From Deltaproteobacteria bacterium (lineage in GTDB: Bacteria; Myxococcota_A; Polyangia; JAAYKL01), in the NCBI GenBank assembly GCA_029565915.1, contig JAKQNG010000334.1:1-48053 (forward strand): 48,053 nucleotides of DNA, written 5' to 3'. Shown here piece by piece: positions 7,401 to 40,029 of the stretch. The position numbers and the translations under genes are program-made. The number at the start of each line of letters is the position of its first letter. Position 1 is the stretch's first letter. The notes below the pieces were generated by a model that worked only from the letters and a program-made list of their open reading frames with translations, did not search any database and was not told the DNA's origin.

Positions 7401-7435
7401 ACATCGGGGTTTCCCGTTCTTTCCATGGATGTGTT

Positions 7436-7453: not shown

Positions 7454-7476
7454 CAATGTTGCGATCTGGAGTTTTC

Positions 7477-11872: not shown

Positions 11873-11882
11873 GGAGATCATC

Positions 11883-13100: not shown

Positions 13101-13528
13101 GGCACCGCGACGACATATTGCTGCAGGGCAGGGGACATCGACGACGGCGACTGACGCCGGGAGAGCGGCGGATGCGGGCTCTGGCGGTCATTGTGGCGCT
13201 GGGATTGTTTTCGATTTTTTCGGTCCGCTGGATGGATCACGAACAGCGGGTCCAGCAGGCCCGGCTCGACGTGTCCCGCATCGCCCACGCGGTGCGCCTG
13301 TTCCGGGCCGATTTCGGGCGCTGTCCCGCGGATGTGGGTGAGCTCGTGGCGCCGCCGGACGGCAGCCCCTACCTGCCGCCCCTGCGGGATCCCTGGGGCC
13401 GGGACTATCAGCTCCAGTGTCCCTCCCGCCACGATGGCGAGGACGCGGATGTGTTTTCCAGGGGGCCCGACGGGGCCGCCACGTCAAGGGATAATGTCAA
13501 GAACATGATCGTGGATCTGACGATCTGA
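13097..13528 (+). CDS. GspG-like protein without a prepilin cleavage motif
   Basis: 143 residues. A basic N-terminus (RRRRLTPGERR) leads into one membrane segment (about 27-43), then a domain resembling the soluble part of GspG: QRVQQARLDVSRIAHAVRL, a CPADVGELV loop, DPWGRDYQLQCP and a final FSRGPDG. It lacks the Gly-Phe-Thr-Leu-Ile-Glu motif needed for prepilin peptidase processing, so it should remain a membrane-anchored protein rather than enter the pseudopilus. It is translationally coupled to gspF (ATGA) and followed 16 bases later by true gspG. Role unknown; it may have arisen by gspG duplication. Confidence 0.85.
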   Translation: MRHRDDILLQGRGHRRRRLTPGERRMRALAVIVALGLFSIFSVRWMDHEQRVQQARLDVSRIAHAVRLFRADFGRCPADVGELVAPPDGSPYLPPLRDPWGRDYQLQCPSRHDGEDADVFSRGPDGAATSRDNVKNMIVDLTI

Positions 13529-13544
13529 ACGAAAGGATTGGACG

Positions 13545-13949
13545 ATGAAACAGAACGAGACAAAACGGTTGCTGCGGCGCGCCGCGGCGGAGCGGCAGAC
13601 GGGCTTCACGCTCATCGAAATCATGATCGTGATTGTGATCATCGGCATGCTGGCCACGGGCGTGACCGTGGGCTACATGTCCCAGCTCAAGCGCTCCCGC
13701 ATGGATACGGCCCGCAACGAGGCCTGCGCCATCCGCAACGCGGTGATGATGTACATCATGCAGAACCCCGGCAAGTGCCCCACCGTGGACGACCTGAAGG
13801 CCGGCGCCTATCTGGACACCAAGATGCGCACCACCGATCCGTGGGGCAACGCCTATTCCATCGAGTGCGATGACGAGTCTCCGGATGTGTTCTCCGGTGG
13901 TCCGGAAGGGAATGAGCGGATCGCCTGCGAAGCGAAGAGCGAGGAGTAG
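13545..13949 (+). CDS. gspG: Type II secretion major pseudopilin GspG
   Basis: Main subunit of the periplasmic pseudopilus. The prepilin motif QTG-FTLIEIMIVIVIIGML gives cleavage after Gly20 and Glu at mature position 5. The C-terminal domain shows CPTVDDLKAG, TDPWGNAYSIEC and the calcium-loop end SGGPEGN. 134 residues, usual size. GAAAGGA lies eight bases upstream of the ATG. The two Cys residues in the soluble domain are shared with the preceding GspG-like protein. Confidence 0.95.
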   Translation: MKQNETKRLLRRAAAERQTGFTLIEIMIVIVIIGMLATGVTVGYMSQLKRSRMDTARNEACAIRNAVMMYIMQNPGKCPTVDDLKAGAYLDTKMRTTDPWGNAYSIECDDESPDVFSGGPEGNERIACEAKSEE

Positions 13950-13961
13950 GCGGACGGTGCG

Positions 13962-14750
13962 ATGAGACCCCGCGGATTCACCATCATCGAGCTGATGATC
14001 GTCATCGTGCTGATTGCGATCATCGTGACGGGTGCGGCCATGGGCATGGGCGCCCTGACGGGTGGAAAGCTCCAGTCGTCCGCCTGGATGATCGTGTCCG
14101 CGTCGCGGTATGCGTACTCCCGCGCCGTTTCCCGGGGCACCACCGTGCGCATGGTGCTGGATTTTGACGCGCGGACCGTGCAGTTGCAGGAAACCAGCGG
14201 CCGGGTGGTGCTGAACCGGGACGATGAGACCGGCGTGGGGTTGAACCGGGAAGAATTTGAAGACGAGTACAAGGCGGACGGGTCGGTGGAGGAGCACGGG
14301 ATGGAAGATCGATTAAAGGATATCGGGCCTTCCATCACCGGGCAGTCCCTGAGCGACGGCACCAGCCCCACCACTTTTACAGACCCGTTTCTGGCGTCCA
14401 TGCAGAGCGGTTTTGCGGGCAGCGGCAACACCCGCTACCGGGGCCCGCGGTTCGAGGTGATTGAGGGACGGAGGGGCGAAGCCCGCACCCTGCCCGGGGA
14501 CGTGGGATTCAGCAGGGTGTACAGCGAGCATGCGCCCGCGCCCATCGAAGGCGGGGGAAAGAATGCCTTCGTGTACTATTTTCCGGGCGGCACATCGGAG
14601 CTGACCTACATCCAGCTGAGCGATTTTGATGACGACCGTCCGCAGATCGCCACCGTGGTCATCCATCCCCTCACCGGGGCGGCAACGGTGTTTCACGAAG
14701 AAAAGGAACCCGACGGCTTGATGAGCGAACTGCAGGAGGCGGAGCGATGA
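13962..14750 (+). CDS. gspH: Type II secretion minor pseudopilin GspH
   Basis: The prepilin motif RG-FTIIELMIVIVLIAII lies directly at the N-terminus. It is followed by an alpha-helix and a beta-rich domain with RGTTVRMVLDFD, as in GspH. At 262 residues it is clearly longer than the usual 150-190, with an extra acidic and Gly-rich stretch around residues 85-190. It is placed between gspG and gspI as in other operons. The last codons overlap the gspI start (ATGA). Confidence 0.85.
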   Translation: MRPRGFTIIELMIVIVLIAIIVTGAAMGMGALTGGKLQSSAWMIVSASRYAYSRAVSRGTTVRMVLDFDARTVQLQETSGRVVLNRDDETGVGLNREEFEDEYKADGSVEEHGMEDRLKDIGPSITGQSLSDGTSPTTFTDPFLASMQSGFAGSGNTRYRGPRFEVIEGRRGEARTLPGDVGFSRVYSEHAPAPIEGGGKNAFVYYFPGGTSELTYIQLSDFDDDRPQIATVVIHPLTGAATVFHEEKEPDGLMSELQEAER

Positions 14751-15520
14751 GGTCGTCGCAAAGCAGGCATCGCGGCTTCACGATTATCGAAATCCTGGTG
14801 GCGATTCTGCTTCTGTCGTCGGCGCTGGTGGCCATTTTCGGCGCCCAGTTCTCCGCCGTGTCGTCGACCAACTACGCCCGCAACATCACCCAGGCCACGC
14901 AGCTGGCGCGGTGCCGGATGAGCGAGCTGGAGCTGCTGTTCATTGAAGAGGGCTTTCAGGAAGGCGATATCGTGGAGTCGGGGGAATGCTGCGAAATCAT
15001 GGAAGGAAATACCCAGACGGAGTTTTCGTGCGAATGGCACATTGAGACCGTGGAGTTTCCCGACATGTCCGCCCTGGCGGATGCCGAAGATGACGACGAG
15101 CTGGAAGACGATCCGGAGAGCCGCCTTTCGTCGATGATGGGCAGCACGGGACTGTCGACGGGCGCCGATGCCCTGGGTGGCGGCACGTCGGATCTGGCGG
15201 CCATGGGCATGGGCATGGTGACCGATCTGCTGCCCCTGGTGACGGACATGCTCGAACAGGCCATCCGGCGCGTCAGCGTAAAGGTGGTGTGGAAGGAAGG
15301 CGCCGCGGAGAAGAGTTTTGAAATTGTCCAGTACGTGACGAATCCGGCCCAGGGCGAGCTGGGGGACCTGCAGGAGGCGGGCGCGGCTCAACGGTGGATG
15401 GACGAAGTCACAGGTGGTGAGGATGCTTCAGGGGGCGGTAATGCTTCCGGGAGGGGTAATGCGGGCGGGGTCCGCAATCGGTTCGGCTTCGAGGGCATCC
15501 GGAGGAAAGCAGATCAATGA
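14747..15520 (+). CDS. gspI: Type II secretion minor pseudopilin GspI, extended
   Basis: The prepilin motif HRG-FTIIEILVAILLLSSAL and ATQLARCRMSELELL are typical of GspI, part of the pseudopilus tip with J and K. The protein is 257 residues, about twice the family norm. The extra length comes from an acidic and Met/Gly-rich insert (about 105-170, including DAEDDDELEDD) and a Gly/Ser/Asn-rich tail (about 220-250). Both ends are coupled to neighbours by ATGA overlaps. Confidence 0.88.
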   Translation: MRSSQSRHRGFTIIEILVAILLLSSALVAIFGAQFSAVSSTNYARNITQATQLARCRMSELELLFIEEGFQEGDIVESGECCEIMEGNTQTEFSCEWHIETVEFPDMSALADAEDDDELEDDPESRLSSMMGSTGLSTGADALGGGTSDLAAMGMGMVTDLLPLVTDMLEQAIRRVSVKVVWKEGAAEKSFEIVQYVTNPAQGELGDLQEAGAAQRWMDEVTGGEDASGGGNASGRGNAGGVRNRFGFEGIRRKADQ

Positions 15521-16248
15521 ACCACCGCGGTTTTACCCTGATGGAAGTCATGATCTCCCTGGCCGTGGTGGGGGTCATCGCCCTGGCGATCTGGGCGGCG
15601 ACCAGCCAGACCGCCAAGGCCCGCGATATCGTGGAAACCACCCAGGATATCCACCATCAGGTCCGCGTGGCCTTTGACATGATCAACCGCGATATCTCGT
15701 CAACATTCCTGTCGGATCACCGGGCGCCCCTGGAAGTGGCCCACGACACCATCTTTGTGGGCACGGACGGCGGCCGGGAAGACAGCCTGGATTTCGCGGC
15801 GTTTTCCCACAACCGGCGCTTCTTTGACGCAGACGAATCCGATCAGGCCGAGATTTCGTATTATCTGGCCAACGACCCCGAAGATCGCGACGTGGTGAAC
15901 CTGGTGCGCCGTGCGTCCCCCGTGCTGGACGAGAAACCCACCGAAGGCGGCCAGACCCTCATTCTGGTGCGCAACGTGTCCGCCTTTGACCTGCAGTTTT
16001 ACGACATTGAAAACAAGGAATGGAAGGACGAGTGGGACACGACCAATTTTACCGGAGAAGGTTCGAAGTTGCCCACGCAGGTGCGCATCCGGTTGTCCGT
16101 GAACGAGCGGGTGGGTCCCGGCCGGTTGAACCGACGGGATAATGAATACCGCGAAGTGGCCTACGGCACCCAGATGCCCGTGCCCATGCGGACGCCCCTG
16201 CTGCTGCCCTTCTGGATTCCGGGCATGCCCCTGGGGGTGAACGAATGA
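15517..16248 (+). CDS. gspJ: Type II secretion minor pseudopilin GspJ
   Basis: The prepilin motif HRG-FTLMEVMISLAVVGVIAL is followed by a GspJ-like domain with HHQVRVAFDMINRDIS and VAYGTQMPVPMR. 243 residues, normal for the family. It forms the tip complex with GspI and GspK. It overlaps gspI and gspK by four bases at each end. Confidence 0.9.
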   Translation: MNHRGFTLMEVMISLAVVGVIALAIWAATSQTAKARDIVETTQDIHHQVRVAFDMINRDISSTFLSDHRAPLEVAHDTIFVGTDGGREDSLDFAAFSHNRRFFDADESDQAEISYYLANDPEDRDVVNLVRRASPVLDEKPTEGGQTLILVRNVSAFDLQFYDIENKEWKDEWDTTNFTGEGSKLPTQVRIRLSVNERVGPGRLNRRDNEYREVAYGTQMPVPMRTPLLLPFWIPGMPLGVNE

Positions 16249-17468
16249 GGGCCCGCGCACAGTCCCAGCGGGGCGTGGCCCTGTTGATGGTGATGATCGC
16301 CCTCGCCATCCTCACGGTGATGACCGCCGACTTCATGGAGAGCAACGAAACCCGGCTCATGACCGCCGTCAACCACCGGGACGCGGTGCAGGCCGAATAC
16401 CTGGCCAGAAGCGGCATCAACCTGTCGCGGCTGCTGCTCAGCGTGCAGTCCATGCCGGGTTTTGAAAAGGCGATGAACTTTCCCTTCTGGGAATATGCGG
16501 ACATGATGCTGGAGCCCTTTGCCTCCAGCGAGGGCGCGGGCATGATGGAAGAGCTGCTGGGGGTCAGCATGGCCGACACCACCGGGCTGGGGCTTCCGGA
16601 GGGCCACGAATTCTCGGTCACCATCGTGGACGAGGAGAGCAAGATCAACATCAACATGGGGGCGGATGCCACCAGGGAAGAGCGGCGCCTGACGCTGGTG
16701 CAGAACCTCTCCACCCTCATGGAACCCGAGATGTACGACGACGTGTTCAAGGGAAAGGATTACCGGGACGAGGTGGAGCGGGAGGATGTGGTGAAGGAGA
16801 TGGTCGATTTCATCGACGGCGATGCGGACCAGTTTCTGGAGGCCTCCGGCGAGGAGGACTACTACTCGTCGCTGGAACCGGAATACCGGCGGAAGAACGC
16901 GCCCTTTGACAGCCTGCAGGAACTGCATCTGGTCCACGGCGTGGGCGACGACTTCTGGAGCGCCTTTGTGGAACCCGACGCGGAAGACCCGAAGTCCCGG
17001 GTGCTGACCGTGTGGGGCAACGCGCGCATCAACGTGAATACAGCCCCCGCGGCGGTGCTTCTGTCGTCCCTGTGCATGCTGGCCATCGACGAGCAGGGCA
17101 ACAATCCGTGCATGGACCTGAACACGAGGGAGAATCTAGCGAATATTCTGCAGGCCCACCTGGTGCTGCGCACCCTCTTGCCGGTGTCCAACGTCAAGGA
17201 ATTCATGCAGCGGGTGAACGGCGGCGATCCCCTCATGCTGCTCATCGATCCGTCGATTGTGCCGTTTCCCGTGCAGGGAAACCGGGCATCGGAGCTGTTC
17301 ATGACAAAGAGCCAGGTGTTTTCCATTTATGCAGAGGGCACCGTGGGCAATGTGACCCGTCGCATCCATGCGGTGGTGGACACGGAACCGAAAATTGCGG
17401 ACATCATCGACCCGACCCAGTCGCTCACCGCTGCCGGGGGACGGATTCTTTACTGGAGGCAGGAATAG
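16245..17468 (+). CDS. gspK: Type II secretion tip pseudopilin GspK
   Basis: The N-terminus QRGVALLMVMIALAILTVMT is the GspK form of the prepilin segment, without the Glu5 found in other pseudopilins. A helical domain follows, with AEYLARSGINLSRLL and FIDGDAD, then WGNARINVNTAPAAVL, typical of GspK helix-hairpin-helix-like regions. 407 residues, somewhat longer than enterobacterial GspK. It caps the pseudopilus. It is coupled to gspJ by ATGA. Confidence 0.9.
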   Translation: MRARAQSQRGVALLMVMIALAILTVMTADFMESNETRLMTAVNHRDAVQAEYLARSGINLSRLLLSVQSMPGFEKAMNFPFWEYADMMLEPFASSEGAGMMEELLGVSMADTTGLGLPEGHEFSVTIVDEESKININMGADATREERRLTLVQNLSTLMEPEMYDDVFKGKDYRDEVEREDVVKEMVDFIDGDADQFLEASGEEDYYSSLEPEYRRKNAPFDSLQELHLVHGVGDDFWSAFVEPDAEDPKSRVLTVWGNARINVNTAPAAVLLSSLCMLAIDEQGNNPCMDLNTRENLANILQAHLVLRTLLPVSNVKEFMQRVNGGDPLMLLIDPSIVPFPVQGNRASELFMTKSQVFSIYAEGTVGNVTRRIHAVVDTEPKIADIIDPTQSLTAAGGRILYWRQE

Positions 17469-17469
17469 C

Positions 17470-19041
17470 ATGACCCAGCATTTCATCGGGCTCGATCTGG
17501 GAAGCCATGCGGTCAAGGCCGTGGTGGTCAAACAGGGACTGCGCAGCGGCGAGGTGATCCGCTTCGACGCGGAGCCCACCGGCGGCGACGACAAAGGCAA
17601 CAGCACCCCCGGCGACATCGTGGCCGCGGCCGGCCGGCTCATTTCGCGCATCAACATTCCCGACGCATCCATTTTCTGCTGCGTGTCCGGCGAACACGTG
17701 TCCGTGCACCGGATTTCACTGCCCCTGAGTGCCGCCAAGCGCGCGCGGGACGTGATGGCCTTCGAGCTCGACGATCGCCTGCCCTATGCGGTGGAAGACG
17801 CGATGTTCGATTTTGTGGAGCAGAAACGGGAGGCGGATGCGGTTGTGTACACCGTGGCCTGCGTGTCCGCGGAACGCCTCCGGAGCCTTGTGGAAGGGCT
17901 GCAGGGCGTGGGTATCGATCCGGCGGAAATCACCATGTCGCCCCTGTGTTACGGCCCGTATCTCGAAGAAATCGGCGCCGTCAGCGCACCGTCGGCCATT
18001 CTGGATCTGGGCCACAACCGCACCAACCTGGTCATTGCCGGTGATGCGGTGACAACCGCCCGTACCCTTCTGCGGGGCGGTCGGGAGCTGACCCTGGCCC
18101 TTTCGGAGGAGGGACATGTCGATTATGCCACGGCGCAGAAATACAAGGAGCAGGCCGGCCTGTCGGGAAAAGTGGGCGAGGTGCTGCGGGATCGGATGAA
18201 CTCCCTGTGCCGCGAAATCGCCCAGACCTTCAACGGCCATCTCGCCAACGGCGGACAACCCGTGCAGCAGCTGCTGATCTGCGGCGGCGGCGCCCGGATG
18301 CCCGGACTGGATGCCCATCTGCAGGAGGTGCTCGGCATTCCCGTGTCCCTGTACCGGGCGCCCGTGTACCGGCACGGCGTGGAAACCTTCGATGCCATGC
18401 TGGCGCCGGAGCTGGCCGTGCTGGCCTCCTGTCTGGCGGGCACGGGGCTGGTGCCGAAGACCCGGCGGTTCAACCTGCGCCACGGGGCGTTTGCCTGGAA
18501 GGGCGATACGGAGGGCGTGCGCCGGCGGATGATCCTGCTGGCCGCGTGTTTTCTCGGCATCATCGGCGCGTGGATTTTTTCGAGCGTCACGCATTACATG
18601 GCCGTCTCCGCCCAGGCGGAGGTGGTGCGCCGGCAACTGGAGAAGGAAACCACCCGCGTGCTGAAAGAGCCCGTCACCAGCCGGACCGTTATCGAGGGCC
18701 GGATGATGCCCAAAGAAGAGACCCGCACGCCTATTCCGAAGCGGGACGCCTTTGAAGTGCTGGTGGAGCTGTCGAAGCGGATACCCGATTCGGTGGTGCA
18801 CGACATCGAGCAGCTCGAAATCCGCCAGCGGCAGGTGGTGATCCGGGGCCTTGTGAATCCGGCCCCGCAGGAAGGGGATGCGGAATTCGACGATGAAGAA
18901 GAAGATCTGTCGCCGACGGACCTGATTAAAAAAGAGCTGGCCGGGTTTGAAGAGTGTTTTACGTCGTTCAAGATTCCCAAGGTGCAGACCGTGGAGGAAC
19001 GCCAGCGGTATACAATGGAGATCGACAGCCGGTGTCCGTGA
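17470..19041 (+). CDS. gspL: Type II secretion inner-membrane protein GspL
   Basis: Links the GspE ATPase to the periplasmic parts. The start at ATG 17470 (GGAGGCAGGAATAGC just upstream) gives the actin/PilM-like N-terminus FIGLDLGSHAVKAVVVKQG. The cytoplasmic domain ends near residue 350, a membrane segment lies at about 355-375 (ILLAACFLGIIGAWIFSS), and a periplasmic domain with an acidic stretch (EFDDEEEDLSPTD) follows. 523 residues. It sits between gspK and gspM as expected. Confidence 0.92.
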   Translation: MTQHFIGLDLGSHAVKAVVVKQGLRSGEVIRFDAEPTGGDDKGNSTPGDIVAAAGRLISRINIPDASIFCCVSGEHVSVHRISLPLSAAKRARDVMAFELDDRLPYAVEDAMFDFVEQKREADAVVYTVACVSAERLRSLVEGLQGVGIDPAEITMSPLCYGPYLEEIGAVSAPSAILDLGHNRTNLVIAGDAVTTARTLLRGGRELTLALSEEGHVDYATAQKYKEQAGLSGKVGEVLRDRMNSLCREIAQTFNGHLANGGQPVQQLLICGGGARMPGLDAHLQEVLGIPVSLYRAPVYRHGVETFDAMLAPELAVLASCLAGTGLVPKTRRFNLRHGAFAWKGDTEGVRRRMILLAACFLGIIGAWIFSSVTHYMAVSAQAEVVRRQLEKETTRVLKEPVTSRTVIEGRMMPKEETRTPIPKRDAFEVLVELSKRIPDSVVHDIEQLEIRQRQVVIRGLVNPAPQEGDAEFDDEEEDLSPTDLIKKELAGFEECFTSFKIPKVQTVEERQRYTMEIDSRCP

Positions 19042-19078
19042 CGCAGGCCCGGTGCAGGGATAGAGGAGTGCAGTTGCA

Positions 19079-19669
19079 ATGTCATCGATTCTGAGAAATT
19101 TCATGGCCGGCCTGTCTCCAAGGGAGCGGCGGCTGGTTCTGGCCATGGCCGCGACGGCGGTTTTGCTGGCCTGTTTTCTGACGGGGTTTGTTCTGCACGG
19201 GGCCACCGCCGAACTGGAGGCGAAGTCCGCCGAGTGGACCGAACTGGTCAAGTTTGTGCGGATGATGGAGCCGAAGTACCTGGAATTGCAGGCCGCCGGT
19301 CCGGCGGTACAGAGCACCGGCAGGCCCACGCCCCTGCGCACGATGGTCGACAACATTGTCAAGCGGGTGGGCATTGACGAGCCCGATACCAAGGAACTGA
19401 ATGACAAGAACCATGCGAGCGGCTGGATTGAGCGCAGCGTGGACGTGTCGTTCCGCTCCATCCCGTTGAAGCCGCTGGTGGATTTCATGGAACAGGTGGA
19501 GGCCAACCGGCGGCAGTTTCCCATTGCCATTTCGCGGCTGGATATCCGGGACCTGAAGCAGGAGGAAAGTCTGTACCGGGTGGAGATGACCATTGCCACC
19601 TACGAGAAGTCCACCGGGGTGCTCGACAAAAACGGCAAACCGGTGGATGCGCGGGAGAGTCGGCCGTGA
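19079..19669 (+). CDS. gspM: Type II secretion inner-membrane protein GspM
   Basis: 196 residues: a short cytoplasmic tail with LSPRERRLVLAMAA, one membrane segment (about 20-40), a coiled coil and a small ferredoxin-like periplasmic domain with VDVSFRSIPLKPLVDFM. SPRERR before the membrane segment is the GspM signature. It partners GspL in the inner-membrane platform. It follows gspL by 37 bases with GAGGAG about 11 bases before its ATG, and overlaps gspN. Confidence 0.88.
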   Translation: MSSILRNFMAGLSPRERRLVLAMAATAVLLACFLTGFVLHGATAELEAKSAEWTELVKFVRMMEPKYLELQAAGPAVQSTGRPTPLRTMVDNIVKRVGIDEPDTKELNDKNHASGWIERSVDVSFRSIPLKPLVDFMEQVEANRRQFPIAISRLDIRDLKQEESLYRVEMTIATYEKSTGVLDKNGKPVDARESRP

Positions 19670-21210
19670 TGTCCCTGAAGTCGATATGGCAGTCGATATG
19701 GCAATGGGTGGAAGCCGTCCACATGAACCCCGGGTTCCGGCGGATTCTCAAAGGCGTTGGCTATCCGTTGTTCTTTTTTATCTGTTTCAGCTTTTTCCTG
19801 GGACTGACGTTTCCCGAGGAGCGGTTCATTCCCGCCGTGGAGAGCCAGTTGTCCGAGTTGCTCGGCCGGGACGTCACGGTGGGGGACATGTCCATCTCCC
19901 CGTTCGGTTCGATGATTCTGTCCGATGTGCAGGTGGAAATTCCCGTCGATGAGGAACAAACACCACGCGACGATGAATCCGGGGATGGTGGTGAGGAGGG
20001 CGACAGTGACGACGGCGCGCAGCAGAAGCCCGCGGTGGCGCCCCGCTACATGATTGATGAAGTGGACGTGGACGTGGGCATTTTTGCGCTGCTGCTGGGG
20101 CGACTCAGCGTGGACGTGGAAATGGATTTTCTGGGTGGGGTGGTGGAGATATCCTGGTCCGGTGCCATGCCCGGCGACGAGGAACCGGTTCCGGCCCCGA
20201 CCCCGGATGCGGCTGAACCGGACGGAGAGCCGGCGCGCGTGTCCCTGATCGCGACGGACTTGAACCTGTCGCAGTTTTTCGAGCTGCGGGAGTTTCTGCC
20301 ACTGCCCCTGCTGGGTACCATGAGCTTTGCGCTGGTGCTCGAAACGGAGACCGGCCGGTTCAAGGATGCGGCGGGCAGCTTTACGGTGGTCGGTCGGAAC
20401 CTGTCCCTGGGACAGGGCCAGACCCCGGTGGAAGTGATTGATGGCATGGGGCCCATGACCGTGGATGCTCTGGCCATCTCCTCCCTCGACATGGCCATGG
20501 AGGCGAAGGGAGGGGTGTGCACGTTCCGGGAATTCAAGCTGGTCTCCAACGATGTCGCCGTCACCGCCGAAGGCGATATCCGGTTTGCCGATCCCCTGTC
20601 GCGCAGCCACATCAACCTGTATTTCGCGTTCCGGCTGCTCGAAGGGTACGAGGCCAGGAGCGACCGGGCGAAGACGCTGGTGTCCATGATGCCCACGGCC
20701 CTTGCGTCGGCGCGGCGGTCCGACGGATCGTACGGCTACGCGTACACGGGACTGTTCAAGGATGCGAAGTTCCGTCCCCGGCGCACGTTCGGTGCGCGGG
20801 ACAGGCGGGGCGTGGCCGACGACGGGGACGGCCGCGGATCTTCCCGGCGACTGGGGATGCGTGCCATGCGCAATCGGGCGGAGGGTGGTCCGGTGCTGCC
20901 CGAGGTGCGTGACATGGATGCGGAAAAACAACGACTGCAGGCGGAAATGGATGCGGCCGCACGGGAGGCAGAGGCACGGGCGGAAGGGGACGACGCCGAA
21001 CTCGACGAAGAAACCATCGACGAAGCGGATCTGAAGGAGGAGTTGAACCGTCCGCCCAGCATCGCGGACATCGAGCAGCAGAAAGCCGACGCATCCGCCC
21101 GGGCCGCCGCGGCCGCTGCTGAAGCGAAGACGGCCATGCAGCAGCCGGACACGGAGGGCGTCGAATCGACCCCGGATACCGCCGCCGCAACCCCGGACAC
21201 GGCCCAGTAG
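19669..21210 (+). CDS. gspN: Type II secretion protein GspN, extended C-terminus
   Basis: The deltaproteobacterial GspN type: one N-terminal membrane segment (about 30-50) and a long periplasmic AsmA-like beta domain with LLGRDVTVGDMSISPFGSM. An acidic low-complexity insert (DDESGDGGEEGDSDDG) interrupts it near residue 105. The last 130 residues are charged and Ala-rich, probably helical or disordered, and absent from short GspN. ATG 19669 overlaps the gspM stop (TGATG); a GTG one codon upstream is possible. It ends the operon; no clear terminator was seen after 21210. Confidence 0.85.
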   Translation: MSLKSIWQSIWQWVEAVHMNPGFRRILKGVGYPLFFFICFSFFLGLTFPEERFIPAVESQLSELLGRDVTVGDMSISPFGSMILSDVQVEIPVDEEQTPRDDESGDGGEEGDSDDGAQQKPAVAPRYMIDEVDVDVGIFALLLGRLSVDVEMDFLGGVVEISWSGAMPGDEEPVPAPTPDAAEPDGEPARVSLIATDLNLSQFFELREFLPLPLLGTMSFALVLETETGRFKDAAGSFTVVGRNLSLGQGQTPVEVIDGMGPMTVDALAISSLDMAMEAKGGVCTFREFKLVSNDVAVTAEGDIRFADPLSRSHINLYFAFRLLEGYEARSDRAKTLVSMMPTALASARRSDGSYGYAYTGLFKDAKFRPRRTFGARDRRGVADDGDGRGSSRRLGMRAMRNRAEGGPVLPEVRDMDAEKQRLQAEMDAAAREAEARAEGDDAELDEETIDEADLKEELNRPPSIADIEQQKADASARAAAAAAEAKTAMQQPDTEGVESTPDTAAATPDTAQ

Positions 21211-25261: not shown

Positions 25262-25337
25262 CGGACATCTGCCGTTTTTCTTCCTCCGTTCGTTTTTCTG
25301 GACCGCTTTTTCCTTCGCCGCATCTCTCCTTTGAAAC

Positions 25338-25350
25338 GGCGGATTCCGCC
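25338..25350 (+). promoter_or_regulatory. Palindrome GGCGGATTCCGCC upstream of beta-helix gene
   Basis: Perfect six-base arms around one T, 19 bases before ATG 25370. As RNA it can form a five-pair stem with an ATT loop. It lies in a block of about 75 bases (including GCATCTCTCCT and GGAGGACTC) shared with the leaders at 28815 and 30441. Confidence 0.6.
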
Positions 25351-25369
25351 TGTGACAATGGAGGACTCG

Positions 25370-27415
25370 ATGTCTGGAAAATTAGATCTGTTGCTGACAG
25401 TAGTATTGGCCGCGCTGCTCATGGCGATGAACGCCGGATGCGACGAACCGGAATCCACGGATTCCGGCGACAGTGACGCGGACAGCGACAGCGACGCGGA
25501 TTCCGACAGCGACGCGGATTCCGACAGTGATACGGATGCGGACGGCGACAGCGACACCGACGCCGACAGTGACACGGACAGCGACGCCGATACGGACAGC
25601 AATACGGATACCGACTATGACACTGACTTCGACACCGAAGGGTTCAGCGGCACCGCCCTGTTTGCATCTCCGGACGGCACCGGTACGGACTGTACGGACG
25701 AAGCGCCGTGTTCGATTGCCTCGGCTAAGGCAAAGGTTCAGGACTCTCTTGGGTCGGGCAGTGATGATCTGGCTGTATTTCTGGCCGGTGGGACGTATGT
25801 GCTCAATGAGCCGCTGGCCTTCGGCGCGGCGGATTCTTCGGACAGTCGCCGGGTTCACTGGATCGGCAACGGCTGCGACACCCGCGTGAGCGGTGGACTC
25901 CGGGTCACAGACTGGACCGTCCACACGGACGACATCTGGAAAGCCCCTGTTCCCGCGGAATTTGACAGTCGTCAGCTCTGGGTCAACGGCCATCGCGCCA
26001 CGGTGGCGAAAACGCCCACCGACCAGAGCCGGACCGCAGTGGACTACAGTACATCATTCCCGGCCGAATTCTGGGGAATGACGCAGGACGGCGGAAGTGT
26101 TTCCACATCATACGACCTGTCGGGATGGAATCGCATCGATCGGGTGGAGGCCGTGATGCGCTTCAACTGGTGGCGCGTGGAGCGGTGCCGTCTGGCGGGC
26201 GGCGGTAACGGCAGTTTCAGTCTGGTGCTACCCTGCGGCAAGAACGCCTGGGTATCTGAACAGCGCAACGTGGTGTATCTGGAAAACGCCTATGAACTGC
26301 TGGACGAACCGGGCGAGTGGTACCTCGATGTGGACGCCGATGTCGTCTACTACAGGCCCCTGGCCGGCGAAGACATGAATGCCGTTGAATCGTGGCTCGG
26401 CAACCTCGAAGAGCTTGTGCGGCTCGACGGTGCCCGCAACATGCAGTTCGAGAAAATCGCGTTCCAGCACGCCACCTGGCACTATCCGAGCGAAGACCAC
26501 GGCTACACCGGATGGCAGGGCGGCTTCACCTATCCGGGCGACTATGAAGCGACCGGCGACGGGCAGGAAACCGTGGGCAATGTGCAAGTGCGCGGGGCAA
26601 ACAATATTTCATTTGAAAGTTGTCGTTTTGAGCACTTCGGCGCTTCGGGCATCAATATCCAGAGTGGCAGTCACGACATTTCTGTTGTCGGGTGCGTGGT
26701 CCGCGACGTTTCCGGACATGGCATTCAGGTGGGACACAAAGATGATTCAGACGGCAACCACACGGCGGATGTGGTCATCCGCAACAACTGGATAACCGAT
26801 GTGGCCGTTGATTTTCAGGACAATCACGGTGTTCACATTCCGCGTTCAACCGGTGTGTGGGTGGAACACAACGAGATTTCGCATACGCCGTACTCCGCCA
26901 TCGCCATCGGCTGGGGATGGAACAATGCGGACAGCTGGTATGGCGATATTCACGTGAACAGCAACCATATTCACAACGCCATGCGCTCCGGCTCCGATGG
27001 CGGGTCCATCTACGCCATGAGTTCTCATCCCGGATCGGAGATCCGCGATAACTGGTTTGATGAATATCTGGATCCGGGCCGGAAACATGTGGGAACGGGC
27101 TACATGCATGGCGGTCACATCTACATGGAAGATGGTGCAAGTCATTACACCGTGCAGGGCAACGTGGCGACAAACACGACGCGATGGCTGTTCACCTGGG
27201 CCACCAACAACCGGGAGAACGACATCCAGTACAACTGGTCCGACACCAGCGAGAGCCAGAACAGCATCGACGGCATCAACGGTTGTGTCATTGCCAATAA
27301 CACCGTCGTCACGGACGGCAACTGGCCCGCAGAAGCGCAGGCGGTCATGAACGCGGCGGGCATGGAATCGCCGTTCGATGCCATCGTGGACGACATGGGT
27401 CTGTGCAGCCGATGA
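25370..27415 (+). CDS. Right-handed beta-helix lipoprotein, GH141-like
   Basis: 681 residues. ATG 25370 follows GGAGGACTCG; lipobox NAGC (Cys24); Asp-rich linker to about residue 90. The rest is a right-handed parallel beta-helix. Its N-terminal part shows the pattern of GH141 and related helix enzymes: LFASPDGTGTDC, FLAGGTYVLNEPLAFG, VSGGLRVTDW, then RQLWVNGHRATVAKTP. Later rungs include CRFEHFGASGINIQSGS and NSNHIHNAMRSGSDGG. GH141 members act on fucosylated or xylan substrates, so a plant polysaccharide is plausible, but the exact activity is not shown. The GH5 gene follows 26 bases later, probably in the same transcript. Confidence 0.8.
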   Translation: MSGKLDLLLTVVLAALLMAMNAGCDEPESTDSGDSDADSDSDADSDSDADSDSDTDADGDSDTDADSDTDSDADTDSNTDTDYDTDFDTEGFSGTALFASPDGTGTDCTDEAPCSIASAKAKVQDSLGSGSDDLAVFLAGGTYVLNEPLAFGAADSSDSRRVHWIGNGCDTRVSGGLRVTDWTVHTDDIWKAPVPAEFDSRQLWVNGHRATVAKTPTDQSRTAVDYSTSFPAEFWGMTQDGGSVSTSYDLSGWNRIDRVEAVMRFNWWRVERCRLAGGGNGSFSLVLPCGKNAWVSEQRNVVYLENAYELLDEPGEWYLDVDADVVYYRPLAGEDMNAVESWLGNLEELVRLDGARNMQFEKIAFQHATWHYPSEDHGYTGWQGGFTYPGDYEATGDGQETVGNVQVRGANNISFESCRFEHFGASGINIQSGSHDISVVGCVVRDVSGHGIQVGHKDDSDGNHTADVVIRNNWITDVAVDFQDNHGVHIPRSTGVWVEHNEISHTPYSAIAIGWGWNNADSWYGDIHVNSNHIHNAMRSGSDGGSIYAMSSHPGSEIRDNWFDEYLDPGRKHVGTGYMHGGHIYMEDGASHYTVQGNVATNTTRWLFTWATNNRENDIQYNWSDTSESQNSIDGINGCVIANNTVVTDGNWPAEAQAVMNAAGMESPFDAIVDDMGLCSR

Positions 27416-27441
27416 GACGCTTTGTGAAAACGGAGGATGCG

Positions 27442-28752
27442 ATGACTGGCGGGGTGAACCTGATTTTGTCTGTTGCGATGGCTGTGCTGGTGATTGCGAT
27501 ACCCACCGGATGCGACAGCGCGGCATCCACTGATCCGGTTGACGTCGACAGCGACACGGATAGCGACAGCGATGCCGACAGTGACACCGACGCGGACACC
27601 GACACGGACGCGGACACGGACAGCGACACGGACGCGGACACGGACAGCGGTCCGGGCAGCGATACGGACAGTCAGATCGACACGGATGGGGACACGGACG
27701 GGCGGTTTCACGTCGTGGGCACAAAGATCATCGCACCTTCCGGCGAAGAGTTTGTTCCCGTCGGGGCCAACGCCTGCGGGTGGAACTATCCCAACTTCGG
27801 CTGTCCGGGCACACTCAATCCCGATGGTTCCGCCCATGCGTTCGAAGACGACTTGGATTCCTTTGTCAACTTGTGGAAGTTCAACACGGCCCGTCTCAAC
27901 GTCTGGACCAAAGAGTTCTGGTGGGAAGGCGTTCAGCACAGCTGGCTGGAATGGCCGCGGGACGAAGCCGACATGCTCGCCGCACTGGATCGGATCGTGA
28001 ATGCCTACTCGGCACTCGGGGTTGTGCTGATCATTGAAAACCATGATTACACCTGTTCCTATCCGAACACCGAGATCAGTCGCCTGAAAGACTTCTGGCG
28101 TTTGATTGCCGATCGCTACCGCGACAATACGTATGTGTGGTTGAATCTGTGGAACGAAGTGGGCTGGGAAGACGGCGCGGTACCGGTCGCCTGGCGCGAT
28201 CAGCAGCAGGAAGTGATTCAGGTGATCCGCGATGAGGTGGGCGCGCAGAATATTATTGTAATCGATGGCTCCAAGTGCGGCCAGGAGGCGGCATCGTGGA
28301 ACGACAACCCGATATGGGCCATTGCATCAGGCATTCTCACCTACGGAGATGATCTCAAACTATTTAACAGCACGAGCTACAGCGACATTCTGTTCAGCGT
28401 TCATATGTACGATCAATGGGCACTGGATTTCGCGTTCGAGAACAAGTTCCGCGATTATGTGGCGCGGGTTCACACAGCGGGGCACGCGCTGATGATCGGC
28501 GAAGTGGGTTCGACAGCACCTGACCGCTTTACCGGGGTAACGGAGCTGGCGGTGGAGGTGGGCCTGCGGGAGCTGGGGCTGGGAGTGCTGTTCTGGCACT
28601 GGTGGCCCGGTGACGGCTTTGCGCTGGTGGAAGGTCCGGGCTGGAACGGCACCGCGGTGAACAGCACCACGAACCCGACCAACCTGACGAGCTATCAGGG
28701 GCAGTTCTTCTGGAGAGCCACACACGAGTACGGATTCGGCCTCCATCCCTGA
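27442..28752 (+). CDS. GH5-family glycoside hydrolase lipoprotein
   Basis: 436 residues. ATG 27442 follows GGAGG; signal peptide with lipobox PTGC (Cys24); Asp-rich linker to about residue 87. The catalytic barrel has the GH5 pattern: FVPVGANACGWN, FNTARLNVW, VVLIIENHD, the acid/base in LWNEVGW (Glu239), FSVHMYDQW and the nucleophile in IGEVGS (Glu354), ending near LFWHWWPGDGF. GH5 enzymes cleave cellulose, mannan or related beta-glycans; subfamily not determined. It shares the signal-peptide style of its neighbours but lacks their palindromic leader, consistent with transcription from the preceding gene. Confidence 0.87.
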   Translation: MTGGVNLILSVAMAVLVIAIPTGCDSAASTDPVDVDSDTDSDSDADSDTDADTDTDADTDSDTDADTDSGPGSDTDSQIDTDGDTDGRFHVVGTKIIAPSGEEFVPVGANACGWNYPNFGCPGTLNPDGSAHAFEDDLDSFVNLWKFNTARLNVWTKEFWWEGVQHSWLEWPRDEADMLAALDRIVNAYSALGVVLIIENHDYTCSYPNTEISRLKDFWRLIADRYRDNTYVWLNLWNEVGWEDGAVPVAWRDQQQEVIQVIRDEVGAQNIIVIDGSKCGQEAASWNDNPIWAIASGILTYGDDLKLFNSTSYSDILFSVHMYDQWALDFAFENKFRDYVARVHTAGHALMIGEVGSTAPDRFTGVTELAVEVGLRELGLGVLFWHWWPGDGFALVEGPGWNGTAVNSTTNPTNLTSYQGQFFWRATHEYGFGLHP

Positions 28753-28814
28753 ATGCCTCCCGCCTGCTTTATTGAACCGTTCTTTCCCCTGATCGCATCT
28801 CTTCCTTTCAAACA

Positions 28815-28825
28815 GCGGACTCCGC
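28815..28825 (+). promoter_or_regulatory. Palindrome GCGGACTCCGC upstream of second beta-helix gene
   Basis: Five-base arms around one C, 23 bases before ATG 28849. It aligns with the palindromes at 25338 and 30441; flanking matches include GCATCTCTTCCT upstream and GGAGGACTCG downstream. Confidence 0.55.
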
Positions 28826-28848
28826 CTCAGAACATTCTGGAGGACTCG

Positions 28849-30378
28849 ATGATTTTCAGAACGAATCTGTTGCTGACAGTTGCAGTGGCCGCCCTGGCAG
28901 CGGTGATGAATGTCGGATGCGACGGCACGGCGTCCGCAGTTTCAGGAGACAGCGACAGCGACTCCGACACGGACAGCGACTCCGACACGGACAGCGACAG
29001 CGACGGCGATGGGACAGACACGTCGGATGGTACAGACAGCGAAAGCACGGATCCGTCCGATCCGGACAGTGACAGCGATGGAGATACAGACAGTGACAGC
29101 GATGCGGATTCGGACACGGAATGCATCCCGGACACGGAACCGCAGCCTGATGAGTATCCTCTGACCGGTGTGGAATACCGGGTGCGGCCGTCGGATCCGC
29201 CGGGTACACTTCTTTCGGCCCTTCAACAGGCGGCGCCCGGCGACCACGTGATCGTGGAGGACGGTCTCTATGAAGAACCCTGGGAACTGAAGATTGAAAA
29301 CAAGGCCGGAACCGATGCGAATCGCCTGGTGATTCGCGCCGAACATTCCGGCGGGGCGATCATCCGGAGTGCGAGCCAGTGGCATGTCATGTCTCTGTGG
29401 AACTCCACCGGCGTGGTCATCGACGGTTTCGACCTGTCCTACGATACCGCGCAGACGGAGGGCATCTGGGCCGGAATTTACGTGACCGACAGCGAATGGG
29501 TGACGGTTTCGAACAACCGCGTTCACGATTGCGGGCTCAGCGGCATCCAGATCGACAAGTCGGATAACATTGTGATCGAAGGCAATCGCACCATCGGCAA
29601 TTCCATGCGCAACGAGCTGAATGGCAGCGGCATCTCCATCTACCACCCGGTGGTCAAGTCCGAAAGTCCGACGGGCTTCGGGTTCATCATCAGAGGCAAC
29701 ATCAGTGCCCACAACCGCTGTGAACTGCCGTTCCCCGGTTGGGGACAGCCAACAGACGGAAACGGCATTATTCTGGACGACTTCCGCAACACGCAGGGTG
29801 GCGGTCAGGAGGGCGGGTATTCGAAGCCGGTGCTTATCGAAAACAATGTCTGTTTCTCAAACGGCGGTCGCGGCATCCACGCCTTCCTGTCCGATCGTGC
29901 GGTCATTCGCCACAACACGGTCTGGCACAACAATCAACTGCTGTCCTCGTACTACGATTCCGTGGCGGATTTGAGCATCATGCAGGCGGACGGCGCTCTG
30001 GCGGTCAACAACATCTCCGTGAGGGATCCGGACATCGTTCAAGGGCATGCCCTGTGGGTGGAAGGGGTGGACAATATCTTCCTGAACAACATGGTTGTCG
30101 GAACCACCTGGTTTTCTGTCGCCGGAGAATCCCTTTTCACGGGAAGCGCTTCGGGCAACCTGACGGATGTTGCGGACAACTACCCCGGTTTCGTGAATCC
30201 AGCGACGGATACGGGGTCTGCCGATTTCCGGCTCACGGATTCCAGTCCGGCAATCGATGCGGGCACCACGGAACAGGCCGCAGCCTTCGATGCCGACGGA
30301 AAACCCCGGCCCATTGGCGGGCTTCCGGATATGGGCGCCTTTGAATACGGGTTGTCCACACTTCCCGTCTGTCCATGA
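28849..30378 (+). CDS. Right-handed beta-helix lipoprotein, possible polysaccharide lyase
   Basis: 509 residues. ATG 28849 follows GGAGGACTCG; lipobox NVGC (Cys24); linker to about residue 100. The helix begins [19 protein letters not shown] and LYEEPWEL, as in pectate lyases of the PL9/PL6 shape, then runs through rungs such as [19 protein letters not shown] and [11 protein letters not shown], closing with SSPAIDAGT and [10 protein letters not shown]. The closing motif is common in secreted beta-helix proteins. Specific lyase or hydrolase activity cannot be assigned. The first 40 residues and the leader are paralogous to those at 25370 and 30474. Confidence 0.78.
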
Positions 30379-30440
30379 CCGTAAGCCGTGCAACTTTTTT
30401 TGAACCGATTTTATCCGTTGCTGCATCTCTCCCTGCAAAC

Positions 30441-30453
30441 GGCGGATTCCGCC
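30441..30453 (+). promoter_or_regulatory. Palindrome GGCGGATTCCGCC upstream of CBM/beta-helix gene
   Basis: Identical to the palindrome at 25338, 20 bases before ATG 30474. Flanked by GCATCTCTCCCTGCAAAC upstream and GGAGGACTCA downstream. Third member of the conserved leader set. Confidence 0.6.
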
Positions 30454-30473
30454 CCGGGACCATGGAGGACTCA

Positions 30474-32867
30474 ATGGTTATCAGAATAAGTGGGTTATTG
30501 TCTGTAGTCATGGCCGCGCTGCTCACGGCACTGGCCACCGGATGCGACGGCACGGCGTCCGCAATTTCAGGAGACAGCGACACGGACAGCGACAGCGATT
30601 CAGACAGCGACAGTGATACGGATTCGGACAGCGACACGGACAGTGACACGGATTCGGACAGCGACACGGACAGTGACGCGGATTCGGACGGTGACTCGGA
30701 TGCCGACAGCGATGCCGACAGCGACAGCGACGCCGACAATGACGCGGACAGCGACACCGACGCGGATGCGGACAGCGACACCGATAGTGACATCCTGCCC
30801 CTGCGCATCGAGGCCGAGTGCGCCTTCGGGGCGGACGCCGGGGATTGCAACGGCGCCTTTGACGGCACGAACATCGCCCTGCCGGGCAACGAGTGGACAC
30901 CTTCTGTCCCCTGGCTCAAGGACACGAATGTGCTGGGCGCCATGGATGCGGGAGTGTGGCTGGCGTTCCCGGGCGTCGACCTGACCGGGTACGACACCAT
31001 CGCGGCGTACTTCGCCAGTGACGGGAACCCGGGGGCGTTCGAGTTCCGGCTGGATGCGCCGGATGGCACATTGATCGGAACGCTGCAGGTTCCGTCCACC
31101 GGCGGCTGGACTGTCTTTGTGGAGCACACCACTTCGATGGTTCCGACATCTGGCGTGCACACCCTGTATGTGGTGGTGACGAGCTCCACGAATGCCACAG
31201 GCATCGGCGATGTGGACTGGTTTGAACTGCGGGCGTCGGGCGGTGCAGATACGGACCCGGTGGATACGGACACGGGCAGCGACGGGGACAGCGACTCGGA
31301 TGTGGACACGGACCCGGTGGATACAGACCCTGTGGATACGGACCCGGTGGACACGGACCCGGTGGACACGGACGAGTTTGACTGCCTCCGTTACGTGAGC
31401 ACCACGGGCAACAACAGCAACAACGGCTCATCGGGCAGCCCCTGGCGGACGATTGCCCACGCGCTCTCGCAGGTGGCCGCCAACTCGGGCTGTGCGATTC
31501 TGCTCTCGGCCGGTGAGTTCGTCGAGGCGAACATCCTGACGGTTCCCGACGGCGTGAGCCTCATTGGAGAAGGGCCATCGTCCACCACCGTCAAGATAAA
31601 CCACTATTTCAGCCTGACCGATGCCGTGTCCAACGCGAATCCCCACGTGCACACGTTCCCCGAACACTTTGTCATTCAGCTCGGCGGTGAGGACCAGATC
31701 ATCTCCGGCTTCCGGCTCGACGGTCAGAACAAGACCTGTCACGGGGGCGTCATCGCCGAGTACGCCAACCATCTGATTGTTGAAAACCTGCGTGTGGAGA
31801 ACTTCCGCTTCTCGGGCATCTGGGTCATCGACGCGGACAACACGGAAATCCGGAATAACTATCTGAAGAACAACACCTACGGAAACCCCGCCGGTTCCGG
31901 GGACGGCGGCGGCGACAGCGGGTCGTTCATGTATCACCGCGGGTACGGGCTGCTCGTCCACGGCAACACCATCATTGAAGAGGGCAACCTGGAGTTTGAC
32001 AAGGGCGGGTACCCCATCAAGGGGCAGAACCGCACCTATGGCGGTGATTCCAAACCCCTCGAAGAATCCCGGTTCTTCAACAACGTGCTGCAGGCCCCCC
32101 AGGGCGGGGCGTGGGAGAATGGCATGGCGCCGGCGATCACTCTGGAAGGCCTCACCGTAACCATGAAGAATGTGCGCATTCACAACAACTGGGTGAACAA
32201 TCACATCTCGTTACCGACGGGGACACAGGGGTGGGGCGTCCGCATCGATCATAATGTCATCGATATGGGACGAGCCAGATACGCGTATGGCATCGAACAC
32301 GCCCTGTCGAACGTGGAGATCGATCACAACTACTTCTACGGCGGCATCTATCCCATCGCCAACTGGGGCGGGGACCGCAGCAACCACAGCATCCACCACA
32401 ACATCTTCCACGGGGCCTGCGCGGACTGGATGGACGGACGGGAGATGATCCTCTATTCGGGCCACATCACCAACCTGAAGTTCTACAACAACACCATCAT
32501 CGACAACGAAGGCATCGGTGAGATCTTCGCCCTGAACGGCGGCTCCACCAACGCGGATGTGCGCAACAATGTGTTCTACCGGGTCAGTGGGTCCCGGGAC
32601 AACTTCGGCGACACACCGAACGGAACGGTCTCGAACAACCACTTCCACAACATCTCCACCCGGGGCAGCAGCAACACCACGGGAGATCCGGGTATCACCC
32701 TGTCGGGCAGCGCGCCGCTTTCGCCTCCCTTCTACACCCTGAACGGTGGCTCACCGCTTATCGATGGGGGCGTGGTCATCGCCCCCTACACCGATGGCTA
32801 CGCGGGCAGCGCCCCCGACAAAGGCGCCATCGAACAGGGCTCCCCATTCTTCGCCGGTGTGCCATAA
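30474..32867 (+). CDS. CBM6-like plus right-handed beta-helix lipoprotein
   Basis: 797 residues. ATG 30474 follows GGAGGACTCA; lipobox ATGC (Cys24). A first Asp-Ser linker runs to about 105. A CBM6/CBM35-like module follows (about 107-258: [42 protein letters not shown]), then a second linker of Asp-Pro-Val-Asp-Thr units, then a beta-helix domain (about 303-797) opening with [18 protein letters not shown] and [13 protein letters not shown]. Rungs are rich in Asn-Asn turns. It probably binds and cleaves an extracellular polysaccharide; family of the helix not assigned. It ends close to the next lipoprotein gene (66 bases). Confidence 0.8.
31311..31370 (+). repeat. Four tandem 15-bp units encoding Asp-Pro-Val-Asp-Thr
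   Basis: Units at 31311, 31326, 31341 and 31356 are variants of GACCCGGTGGACACG; the last two are identical. They form the second linker of the CBM/beta-helix protein and differ in composition from the Asp-Ser linkers of its neighbours. Confidence 0.85.
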
Positions 32868-37987: not shown

Positions 37988-39235
37988 CTATCTGACCAGT
38001 TCGCGGGCCAGGTCGGCACCGGCGCCATCCGGGAAGCGCCGCAGGTATTCCCCGGCCGTGCTGCGGGCCATCTGCATGCGGCCCTGCTGGTGCTGGATTT
38101 CCATGACCCGCCCCAGGGCGGGCTCTGCCAGGGGGCCATCGGGGGTTTCCTTCAGGTAGATGAGATTCCATTTTTCGGCGTCCCGGAATTGTCTGCTGCG
38201 GAAGGCCGCATGGCCCAGCATGTAGGCCGCGGTGGCGCTGTGGGTGGAACCGGCGAAGCGGCGGCGGACGCACTGAAGCGCCCGGACCTCCCCCGGGCCG
38301 TTGCCTGCGAAGCGCGAGACATCGGCGAGGCGCAGCAGCAGGGCGCCATCGATCCGGTTGCACAGGTTGTCGAAGCCTTCCTTTTCGGCCGCGGCAAAGG
38401 ATTCCCTGTACAGGCGCCGGGCCGCGAGGGAAATCCAGTCGTCCGCCGGGGGTGACTTTTCGGTCGCCGGGGAAGGAGGAACCCGGTGCCCGCGGCTTCC
38501 ATCTCCCTGTCGATTCCCATTTCCGGGTGCATTTTCAACCGCTGCGGGCGGTGCCCCGGCTTCCTCTGCTGCGGCGGCGGCATCGGGTCCGGGATCGTCG
38601 AGGCGCACGGTCAGGCGCTGTCCTCCGCTGACAGAGCGGGCCGGCGACAGGGTAGGGCCGCTCACCATCACCCGTCCTTCATCCATCTGGATGTCGAACA
38701 CCTGCCGGTCCCTGTTCCAGCTCAGCAGAAACGCCGTACCCGTGACGTTCACGGTAAACGGACCCGCGTCGATGCGCCAGCGGGTGGTCTCCTTGTGCCG
38801 CACCTTGACATAGGCGCTGCCGGTGTCCATTCGGACGGTCGCGCCCCGGTCGTCGACGGCGGTCACCGCGGCCACTGTCCCGCCGTTGATCCAGATCTGC
38901 GAGGCGTCGGTAAACTCCGCGAGGGCCGTCCGGCGCCCATCCACCCGGATGGTGCGGCCTACCTTTCCGTCCGCGCCGTCCAAGGAAAAACCGGGGGGTG
39001 ACGGGCGGAAGAGGACGACGGCGGCAATCAGCAGAGCCGCCGCCGCGGGAATGGCGGCGAGCCGCAGGAAAACCCATCTGCCCGCGGGGGCCGGTTGCGC
39101 GGCCTGGGCGGCGTCCAGAAAGGCGGACAGGCGGGTTTCCTGCTCTTCGATGGAACGGTTCTGCCGCACCGCATCCTGCTCCTGCGCGATCTGCGCTGCC
39201 AGGGCATCGAGTCTGTCAAATGGCTGTTGCGTCAT
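37988..39235 (-). CDS. FecR-domain regulator with TPR-like tail
   Basis: 415 residues. A cytoplasmic N-terminus with DALAAQIAQEQDAVRQN, one membrane segment (about 53-75), then a FecR domain: VGRTIRVDGRRTALAEFTD, VRMDTGSAYVKVRH, FTVNVTGTAFLLSW and FDIQMDEGRVMV. After a Pro/Ala-rich spacer, residues about 265-415 form helical pairs like TPR repeats (SATAAYMLGHAAFRSRQF). FecR proteins sense in the periplasm and control a partner ECF sigma factor. Its ATG overlaps the stop of the sigma gene (ATGA), supporting that pairing. Confidence 0.87.
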   Translation of the reverse strand: MTQQPFDRLDALAAQIAQEQDAVRQNRSIEEQETRLSAFLDAAQAAQPAPAGRWVFLRLAAIPAAAALLIAAVVLFRPSPPGFSLDGADGKVGRTIRVDGRRTALAEFTDASQIWINGGTVAAVTAVDDRGATVRMDTGSAYVKVRHKETTRWRIDAGPFTVNVTGTAFLLSWNRDRQVFDIQMDEGRVMVSGPTLSPARSVSGGQRLTVRLDDPGPDAAAAAEEAGAPPAAVENAPGNGNRQGDGSRGHRVPPSPATEKSPPADDWISLAARRLYRESFAAAEKEGFDNLCNRIDGALLLRLADVSRFAGNGPGEVRALQCVRRRFAGSTHSATAAYMLGHAAFRSRQFRDAEKWNLIYLKETPDGPLAEPALGRVMEIQHQQGRMQMARSTAGEYLRRFPDGAGADLARELVR

Positions 39236-39861
39236 GGTTCCACCCCCTGCGCCAGATCGGCGAGCATGGGATCGTTTTTGGCCCTCCGCATGAAGCGGTC
39301 GCGGGCGTCCGAAAAGCGGCGTTTCGCCGTGGACAGGGACATATCGCAGAGTTCCGCCACGTCTTCCATTTTCATCCTGTCCAGTATCCGCAGGGTGAAG
39401 ACGATCCGATCTTCGGCGTTCAGGGAATCGAGGATGGCGTAGGCGTGGCGCAGGCGGTGGAGGATTTCGGGGTTCGCCTGGGGGGATTCGGGTTCCGGCA
39501 TCCGGTCGTCGCCGATGAACGTCAGCCAGGAGTGGATGCGCCGGCGTCGCAGTTTCTGGCGCACGTTGTTCACCGCGATGCGCAGCAGCCAGAACTTCAG
39601 GTTCGGAATGTCCCCTCGAAACCCTTCGATACCGCGGATGGCGCACAGGAATGTTTCCTGCACCAGATCGGGAATATCCTGATCGAATCCCATGGTGCGT
39701 TGGATGACGCGCTCCACCGCATCGCTGTAGCGCAGATACAGCTCCGCGTGGGCGGCCCGATGGCACTGTCTCAGGTCCTTCAGGAACACCTGATCGTCGT
39801 CATACCGACGATGGAAAGGAACAATCCGGTGTCCGTTCGTGCCTGTGTCCGCGCTTCCCAT
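39232..39861 (-). CDS. ECF-family RNA polymerase sigma factor
   Basis: Region 2 is AELYLRYSDAVERVIQRTMG to DLVQETFLCAIRGIEGF and FWLLRIAVNNVRQKLRR; region 4 is LDSLNAEDRIVFTLRI and MSLSTAKRRFSDARD. 209 residues from ATG 39861, which has AGGAG 12 bases upstream. ATGs at 39900 and 39903 would add 13 or 14 residues but lack a ribosome site. It is predicted to direct transcription of its own operon and perhaps the polysaccharide genes, under control of the coupled FecR protein. Divergent from the sugar symporter gene. Confidence 0.87.
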   Translation of the reverse strand: MGSADTGTNGHRIVPFHRRYDDDQVFLKDLRQCHRAAHAELYLRYSDAVERVIQRTMGFDQDIPDLVQETFLCAIRGIEGFRGDIPNLKFWLLRIAVNNVRQKLRRRRIHSWLTFIGDDRMPEPESPQANPEILHRLRHAYAILDSLNAEDRIVFTLRILDRMKMEDVAELCDMSLSTAKRRFSDARDRFMRRAKNDPMLADLAQGVEP

Positions 39862-40029
39862 GTGTTCTGACCGGCTCCTGACCGTTGTGAATGCCGCCAT
39901 CATACAGGGAAAGATGCAGCGGGTCAGCCGAACGGTTCAATATTCCGTCGGATCTGGACGCGGTCCGGAGGATGTGCTCTACTCGGCGCCGCTCCGCACG
40001 GCAGGCGGCAATCATCCGGGAGGAACCAC

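Follow-up and report, generated by a model that had tools for sequence, protein, structure and literature searches.

Three neighbouring lipoprotein genes of a Deltaproteobacteria genome, all on the forward strand of the 48,053-nucleotide stretch of DNA analysed here (the window), are preceded by nearly the same bases, and the question raised by this locus is what these leaders are and which part of them is under selection. A preliminary description had placed the palindrome at the centre, proposing that it had been selected as a protein operator or as an RNA element near the ribosome site. Our analysis bears out the idea of selection, but not the palindrome as the main signal, because the dyad upstream of it is better evidenced, as a putative promoter for an ECF sigma factor. 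Judged by its sequence, the block is a real regulatory leader of an ordinary kind, a predicted ECF-sigma promoter followed by a short palindromic 5' UTR, and the new content is the assignment of the sigma factor.

The leaders were aligned using MAFFT. They cover about 75 common bases (25299-25372 for gene A, 28773-28851 for gene B and 30401-30476 for gene C), with 52 invariant columns of 73-79 and a mean identity of 85%, in agreement with the block first described. The order of elements is the same in each: a -35-like element (TGGACCG at 25299 in A, TGAACCG at 28773 in B and at 30401 in C, hence TGRACCG), a T/C-rich spacer of 14, 15 and 15 bases, GCATCTCT starting at 25320, 28795 and 30423, and, 6-7 bases later, AAAC with the palindrome behind it; a variable stretch of 9-12 bases then leads to GGAGGACTC and (G/A)ATG. 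In gene A the Shine-Dalgarno (SD) sequence GGAGGA is followed by CTCG and the ATG at 25370 (25360..25372, forward strand). Invariant positions amount to 5/6 in the -35-like element, 6/15 in the spacer, 8/9 in the -10-like element, 4/4 in AAAC, 11/13 in the palindrome, 4/13 in the bases after it and 11/12 from the SD to the ATG. The palindrome is thus conserved while the bases that follow are not, just as had been noticed (Fisher p = 0.015); the stretch behind it is indeed variable, although its length is 9, 12 and 10 bases and not the 10-13 given earlier. The possibility that the leaders are coding sequence was rejected, since indels of 1-2 nt between the copies break the frame.

Scored with a sequence-only model of the leader, A, B and C reach 73-81 bits, while the rest of the 4.1 Mb genome stays at or below 16.7 bits, and therefore the likeness of the three is not due to chance. 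No further copy of the whole leader was found in this genome with the model, there was no real match in 59 related genomes (13 of them of the same family), and a search for relatives in further genome contigs gave no match. When the core alone (AAAC, palindrome and SD) was searched in 85,000 GTDB genomes, 25 scattered loci in unrelated phyla were recovered, none alike beyond the core, and we read these as chance matches. The assembly consists of 343 contigs and is 90% complete, and therefore additional targets may be missing from it.

The upstream half of the leader behaves differently. In the genome-wide motif search envisaged in the preliminary description, the whole leader and the palindrome in its SD context had no further copies, whereas the promoter half recurs, before a sigma factor gene, at 39939. 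The dyad TGRACCG-N14/15-GCATCTCT lies on the forward strand at 25299..25327 in leader A (with N14, the sole exact match of this form in the genome), at 28773..28802 in leader B and at 30401..30430 in leader C (both with N15), and in position and form it resembles the promoter of an ECF sigma factor. On the reverse strand, about 50 bp upstream of the sigma gene, the sequence beginning at 39939 reads TATTGAACCGTTCGGCTGACCCGCTGCATCTTTCCCTG; it contains TGAACCG, 15 bases and GCATCTTT (39910..39939), followed by CCCTG as in leader C. The pattern TGAACCG-N15-GCATCTYT is matched exactly at three places in the genome, namely leaders B and C and the putative promoter of the ECF sigma gene, with no sites at one mismatch and 14 at two; the control with the reversed pattern gave 2. 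From the strict motif defined by A, B and C the sigma-gene site differs by one mismatch, and 0.3 sites per genome are expected within that distance. For such sites no further than 200 nt upstream of any of the 32 sigma factor genes found by Pfam search in the genome, the expectation is about 2e-4, calculated analytically and from base composition only. The likeness also extends beyond the motif, as the site carries ATTGAACCGTTC as in B and GCTGCATCT.TCCCTG as in C, and it is the best match in the window to both promoters outside the leaders themselves. The distance from the end of the dyad to the ATG is about 51 bp at the sigma gene and 42-46 bp in the leaders.

Using a promoter-only model, this site ranked fourth, with 10.2 bits versus 5.9 for the next one. 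Over the whole genome it was not among the matches listed for that model, and the support for the site therefore comes from the motif defined by A, B and C, its uniqueness and its location, the motif having been chosen after seeing the three leaders. When dyads were compared without constraint, a 14/14 match occurred in 9 of 3188 unrelated pairs of ECF genes and leaders. A looser form, GAACC-N16-19-CATCTC, had 9 matches versus 1 in the control, and those of its forward-strand matches outside the leaders that were inspected overlap long open frames. None of the 29 other sigma genes scanned has the dyad upstream; among relatives, homologues of the ECF gene are at most 42% identical, and the dyad precedes none of the 29 inspected. 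Other ECF genes near lipoproteins with linkers in this genome have no comparable dyad in common with the lipoprotein leaders, and generalising the arrangement to those neighbourhoods was not supported.

The TTGAAC found in B and C also resembles the TTGACA box, and one might suppose that the leaders carry a housekeeping sigma-70 -35 element, or no promoter, the remainder being incidental. We regard this as very improbable, given that the hexamer at 16-17 bp spacing is GCATCT, with only the last T in common with TATAAT, and that several other lipoprotein leaders of the genome have, by eye, TATAAT-like or TACACT-like boxes at that distance.

The sigma factor gene (39232..39858, reverse strand) is the one of the 32 that lies inside the window, 7-9 kb away from the three neighbouring genes. 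Its product of 208 amino acids consists of region 2 and region 4 only (Sigma70_r2, PF04542, and Sigma70_r4_2, PF08281). The start at 39858, which lies behind AGGAG, is preferred over that at 39903; the latter ATG falls exactly on the predicted transcript start and would be a possible leaderless start. The start of the next gene (37988..39235, reverse strand) overlaps the stop of the sigma gene, and its product is a predicted anti-sigma factor with a FecR domain (PF04773, E = 1.3e-8) and apparently a single membrane segment, one hydrophobic stretch being visible by eye ahead of the FecR domain. Behind it are found an uncharacterised protein of 315 amino acids and a Glyco_hydro_cc protein, with a divergent MFS sugar transporter. 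In those window genes that were run against Pfam, no TonB-dependent receptor domain turned up.

On the forward strand, the predicted targets form a tandem group. Gene A (25370..27415) encodes a lipoprotein with an Asp/Ser-rich linker, a GH141 insertion domain and a beta-helix; gene B (28849..30378) a lipoprotein with a linker and a right-handed beta-helix; and gene C (30474..32867) a lipoprotein with a linker, CBM6 and DUF1565/beta-helix, the domains being assigned by Pfam. A fourth paralogue, missing from the preliminary description as was the recurrence of the promoter half at 39939, is gene D (27442..28752, ATG at 27442), which starts 26 bp behind gene A and also encodes a lipoprotein with an Asp/Ser-rich linker; it has a GH5 domain, and its signal peptide and the context of its SD are like those of the others; a GH5 of this kind was found in none of the 13 other genomes of the same family. 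Just upstream of the cluster lies a type II secretion operon (7381-21210; by Pfam, secretin and E, F, G, J, K and L/PilM-like components), a possible surface route. The portion of the 4.1 Mb assembly read here contains about 100 genes for lipoproteins with long (DS/DT/DA)n linkers (108 leaders were compared), and those in the window often have carbohydrate-active or beta-helix domains.

The signal-peptide regions of A, D, B and C are homologous, the first 75 coding bases of the four being 60-71% identical, and B and C have a long tract in common after the signal peptide. Such 5' ends, together with the lack of leader copies elsewhere in the genome or in the 59 relatives, would also be expected if the leader were only what is left of a cassette of leader and signal peptide that was recently duplicated in tandem or copied by gene conversion, with a palindrome without function. 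This we consider improbable, since the leaders of A, B and C (73-82% identical pairwise) are more alike than their first 75 coding bases (63-71%), since conservation sits in the -35, the -10, the palindrome and the SD and not in the spacers, and since the promoter half is also found ahead of a gene that does not belong to the duplicated group. For the palindrome itself, plain inheritance through duplication may nonetheless be enough.

Gene D is informative about how the elements are linked. Its SD context, TGTGAAAACGGAGGATGCGATG, aligns with TGTGACAATGGAGGACTCGATG of gene A, and further upstream there is only the end of gene A, so that D retains TGTGA...GGAGGA..CGATG with neither promoter nor palindrome. 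The palindrome therefore travels with the promoter and not with the ribosome site. It reads GGCGGATTCCGCC in leader A (25338..25350, predicted to occupy roughly transcript positions +4 to +17) and in leader C (30441..30453), and AGCGGACTCCGCC in leader B (28814..28826), where the outer pair is broken and only GCGGANTCCGC is symmetric (all on the forward strand). It lies outside the core promoter, and like D, the predicted leader of the sigma gene is without it.

As RNA the palindrome is predicted to form GGCGG-AUU-CCGCC, with a stem of 5 bp, or 4 bp in leader B. This would probably make it a small hairpin at the very start of the message, comparable with the ompA-like stem-loops, in which a short hairpin stands at the 5' end of the mRNA upstream of the SD, although here the stem is a predicted one of only 4-5 bp and the leaders fold no better than dinucleotide shuffles (z of -0.26 to -0.51). 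Among the three copies the stem has a single change, uncompensated, in leader B, and no relative searched carries the leader; an Rfam scan of the window gave no match. Comparison of G-U with C-A pairing in the leaders of the genome gave no RNA signature, the asymmetry of pair types not favouring RNA over DNA.

The same bases could instead serve as an operator in the DNA, at which a dimeric repressor or activator would bind GCGGANTCCGC just past the transcript start and control the three lipoprotein genes. All copies agree in the symmetric half-sites, the A and T beside the centre included, whereas the central base differs between them, the location right after the predicted start would suit a repressor, and the loss of palindrome and promoter together in the operonic gene D fits as well. 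Against this, the half-sites are short, no copies but these precede an SD anywhere in the genome (two further matches to the pattern are unrelated), the predicted leader of the sigma gene is without the palindrome, no adjacent regulator gene was identified besides the ECF/FecR pair, and palindromes of other sequence also precede the SD of other genes. We thus think an operator unlikely and prefer the 5' hairpin, to which we give about twice the weight.

Palindromes just before the SD were also seen elsewhere in this genome. Of the 248 leaders whose upstream space exceeds 70 bp, 39 have a stem scoring at least 14 at -45..-12, against 22 and 18 for windows placed farther from the start codon; perfect GC-rich stems thus show a modest enrichment there, of about twofold. 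A tandem pair of linker lipoproteins on contig C55 (L282; genes at 6865 and 8213) has a different palindrome, TCGGGGAT(A/G)TCCCCGA, directly before the SD, in a common leader that reads TCGGGGAT(A/G)TCCCCGACGGGAGG. At 2-5 kb upstream of this pair are two ECF sigma genes, with which no dyad in common was found. A second type of shared leader was seen in two unlinked lipoprotein genes (C82:13903 and C170:1239), near-identical at 33/40 positions, with GGTGCACTGCCATGGRA.

We consider it likely that a small autoregulated ECF/FecR regulon drives the tandem surface lipoproteins A (with D), B and C from ECF-sigma promoters. Each leader would be a short promoter plus a 5' UTR, with TGRACCG, the 14-15 bp and GCATCTCT as the -35 and -10 read by the ECF sigma factor encoded on the opposite strand, a recognition suggested by the sharing of the motif. 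Carrying the same dyad, the sigma gene is probably self-activating, and the module of sigma, FecR and glycan lipoproteins probably autoregulated. The FecR-domain protein, whose translation is coupled to that of the sigma gene, would keep the sigma factor inactive until it is freed by a signal from the periplasm or envelope, presumably one derived from glycans. Transcripts of A (with D), B and C would then start about 6-8 nt past GCATCTCT, near AAAC, with the palindrome as a GC hairpin of 4-5 bp at their extreme 5' end, 9-12 nt before the SD, where it might act as a 5'-end stabiliser or hold the SD open. The cassette of leader and signal peptide would have spread through tandem duplication, D losing promoter and hairpin together on becoming operonic behind A.

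ECF sigma factors classically recognise AAC at -35 and CGT at -10 and have a co-transcribed anti-sigma factor, and about 55% of them autoregulate; later classifications no longer take the CGT as defining (PMC8103513). The -35 AAC is present in B, C and the sigma-gene site while leader A has GAC, and the -10 reads CAT, not CGT, in all four. Autoregulated ECF regulons, such as sigma-E of E. coli, SigW of B. subtilis and ECF26 of S. meliloti, are alike in the two-domain sigma factor, the adjacent anti-sigma gene, the few targets with the sigma gene's own promoter and the AAC in the -35; they differ from the present case in that leader A has GAC, in that the targets here are tandem glycan-active lipoproteins, and in the palindrome right past the predicted start. 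The ECF26 promoters of S. meliloti (GGAATA...CGTCTCT) have a -10 ending in TCTCT as here, with CATCTCT in place of CGTCTCT (PMC6180224). The FecI/FecR systems share the ECF sigma factor and the FecR-domain anti-sigma factor with, apparently, one membrane segment, but include a TonB-dependent receptor, unlike the window genes searched, and usually lack the autoregulation that is apparent here (PMC8103513). In Clostridium thermocellum, biomass-sensing sigma-I/anti-sigma pairs similarly place extracellular polysaccharide-degrading proteins under an alternative sigma factor through common promoter elements (PMC6056542); the sigma class and anti-sigma architecture being different, this is an analogy of logic only.

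A more tentative idea, which we think doubtful, is that copying a cassette of promoter, hairpin and signal peptide recruits genes of glycan-active surface lipoproteins into the ECF regulon, with promoter, hairpin and SD selected as one unit and the hairpin making a stable or highly translated mRNA. For the glycan-active surface lipoproteins of this organism, the analysis provides a testable assignment of regulator to targets, comprising a sigma factor, an anti-sigma factor, a promoter and at least four target genes, and it suggests how one copied 5' cassette may place different enzymes under a single signal.
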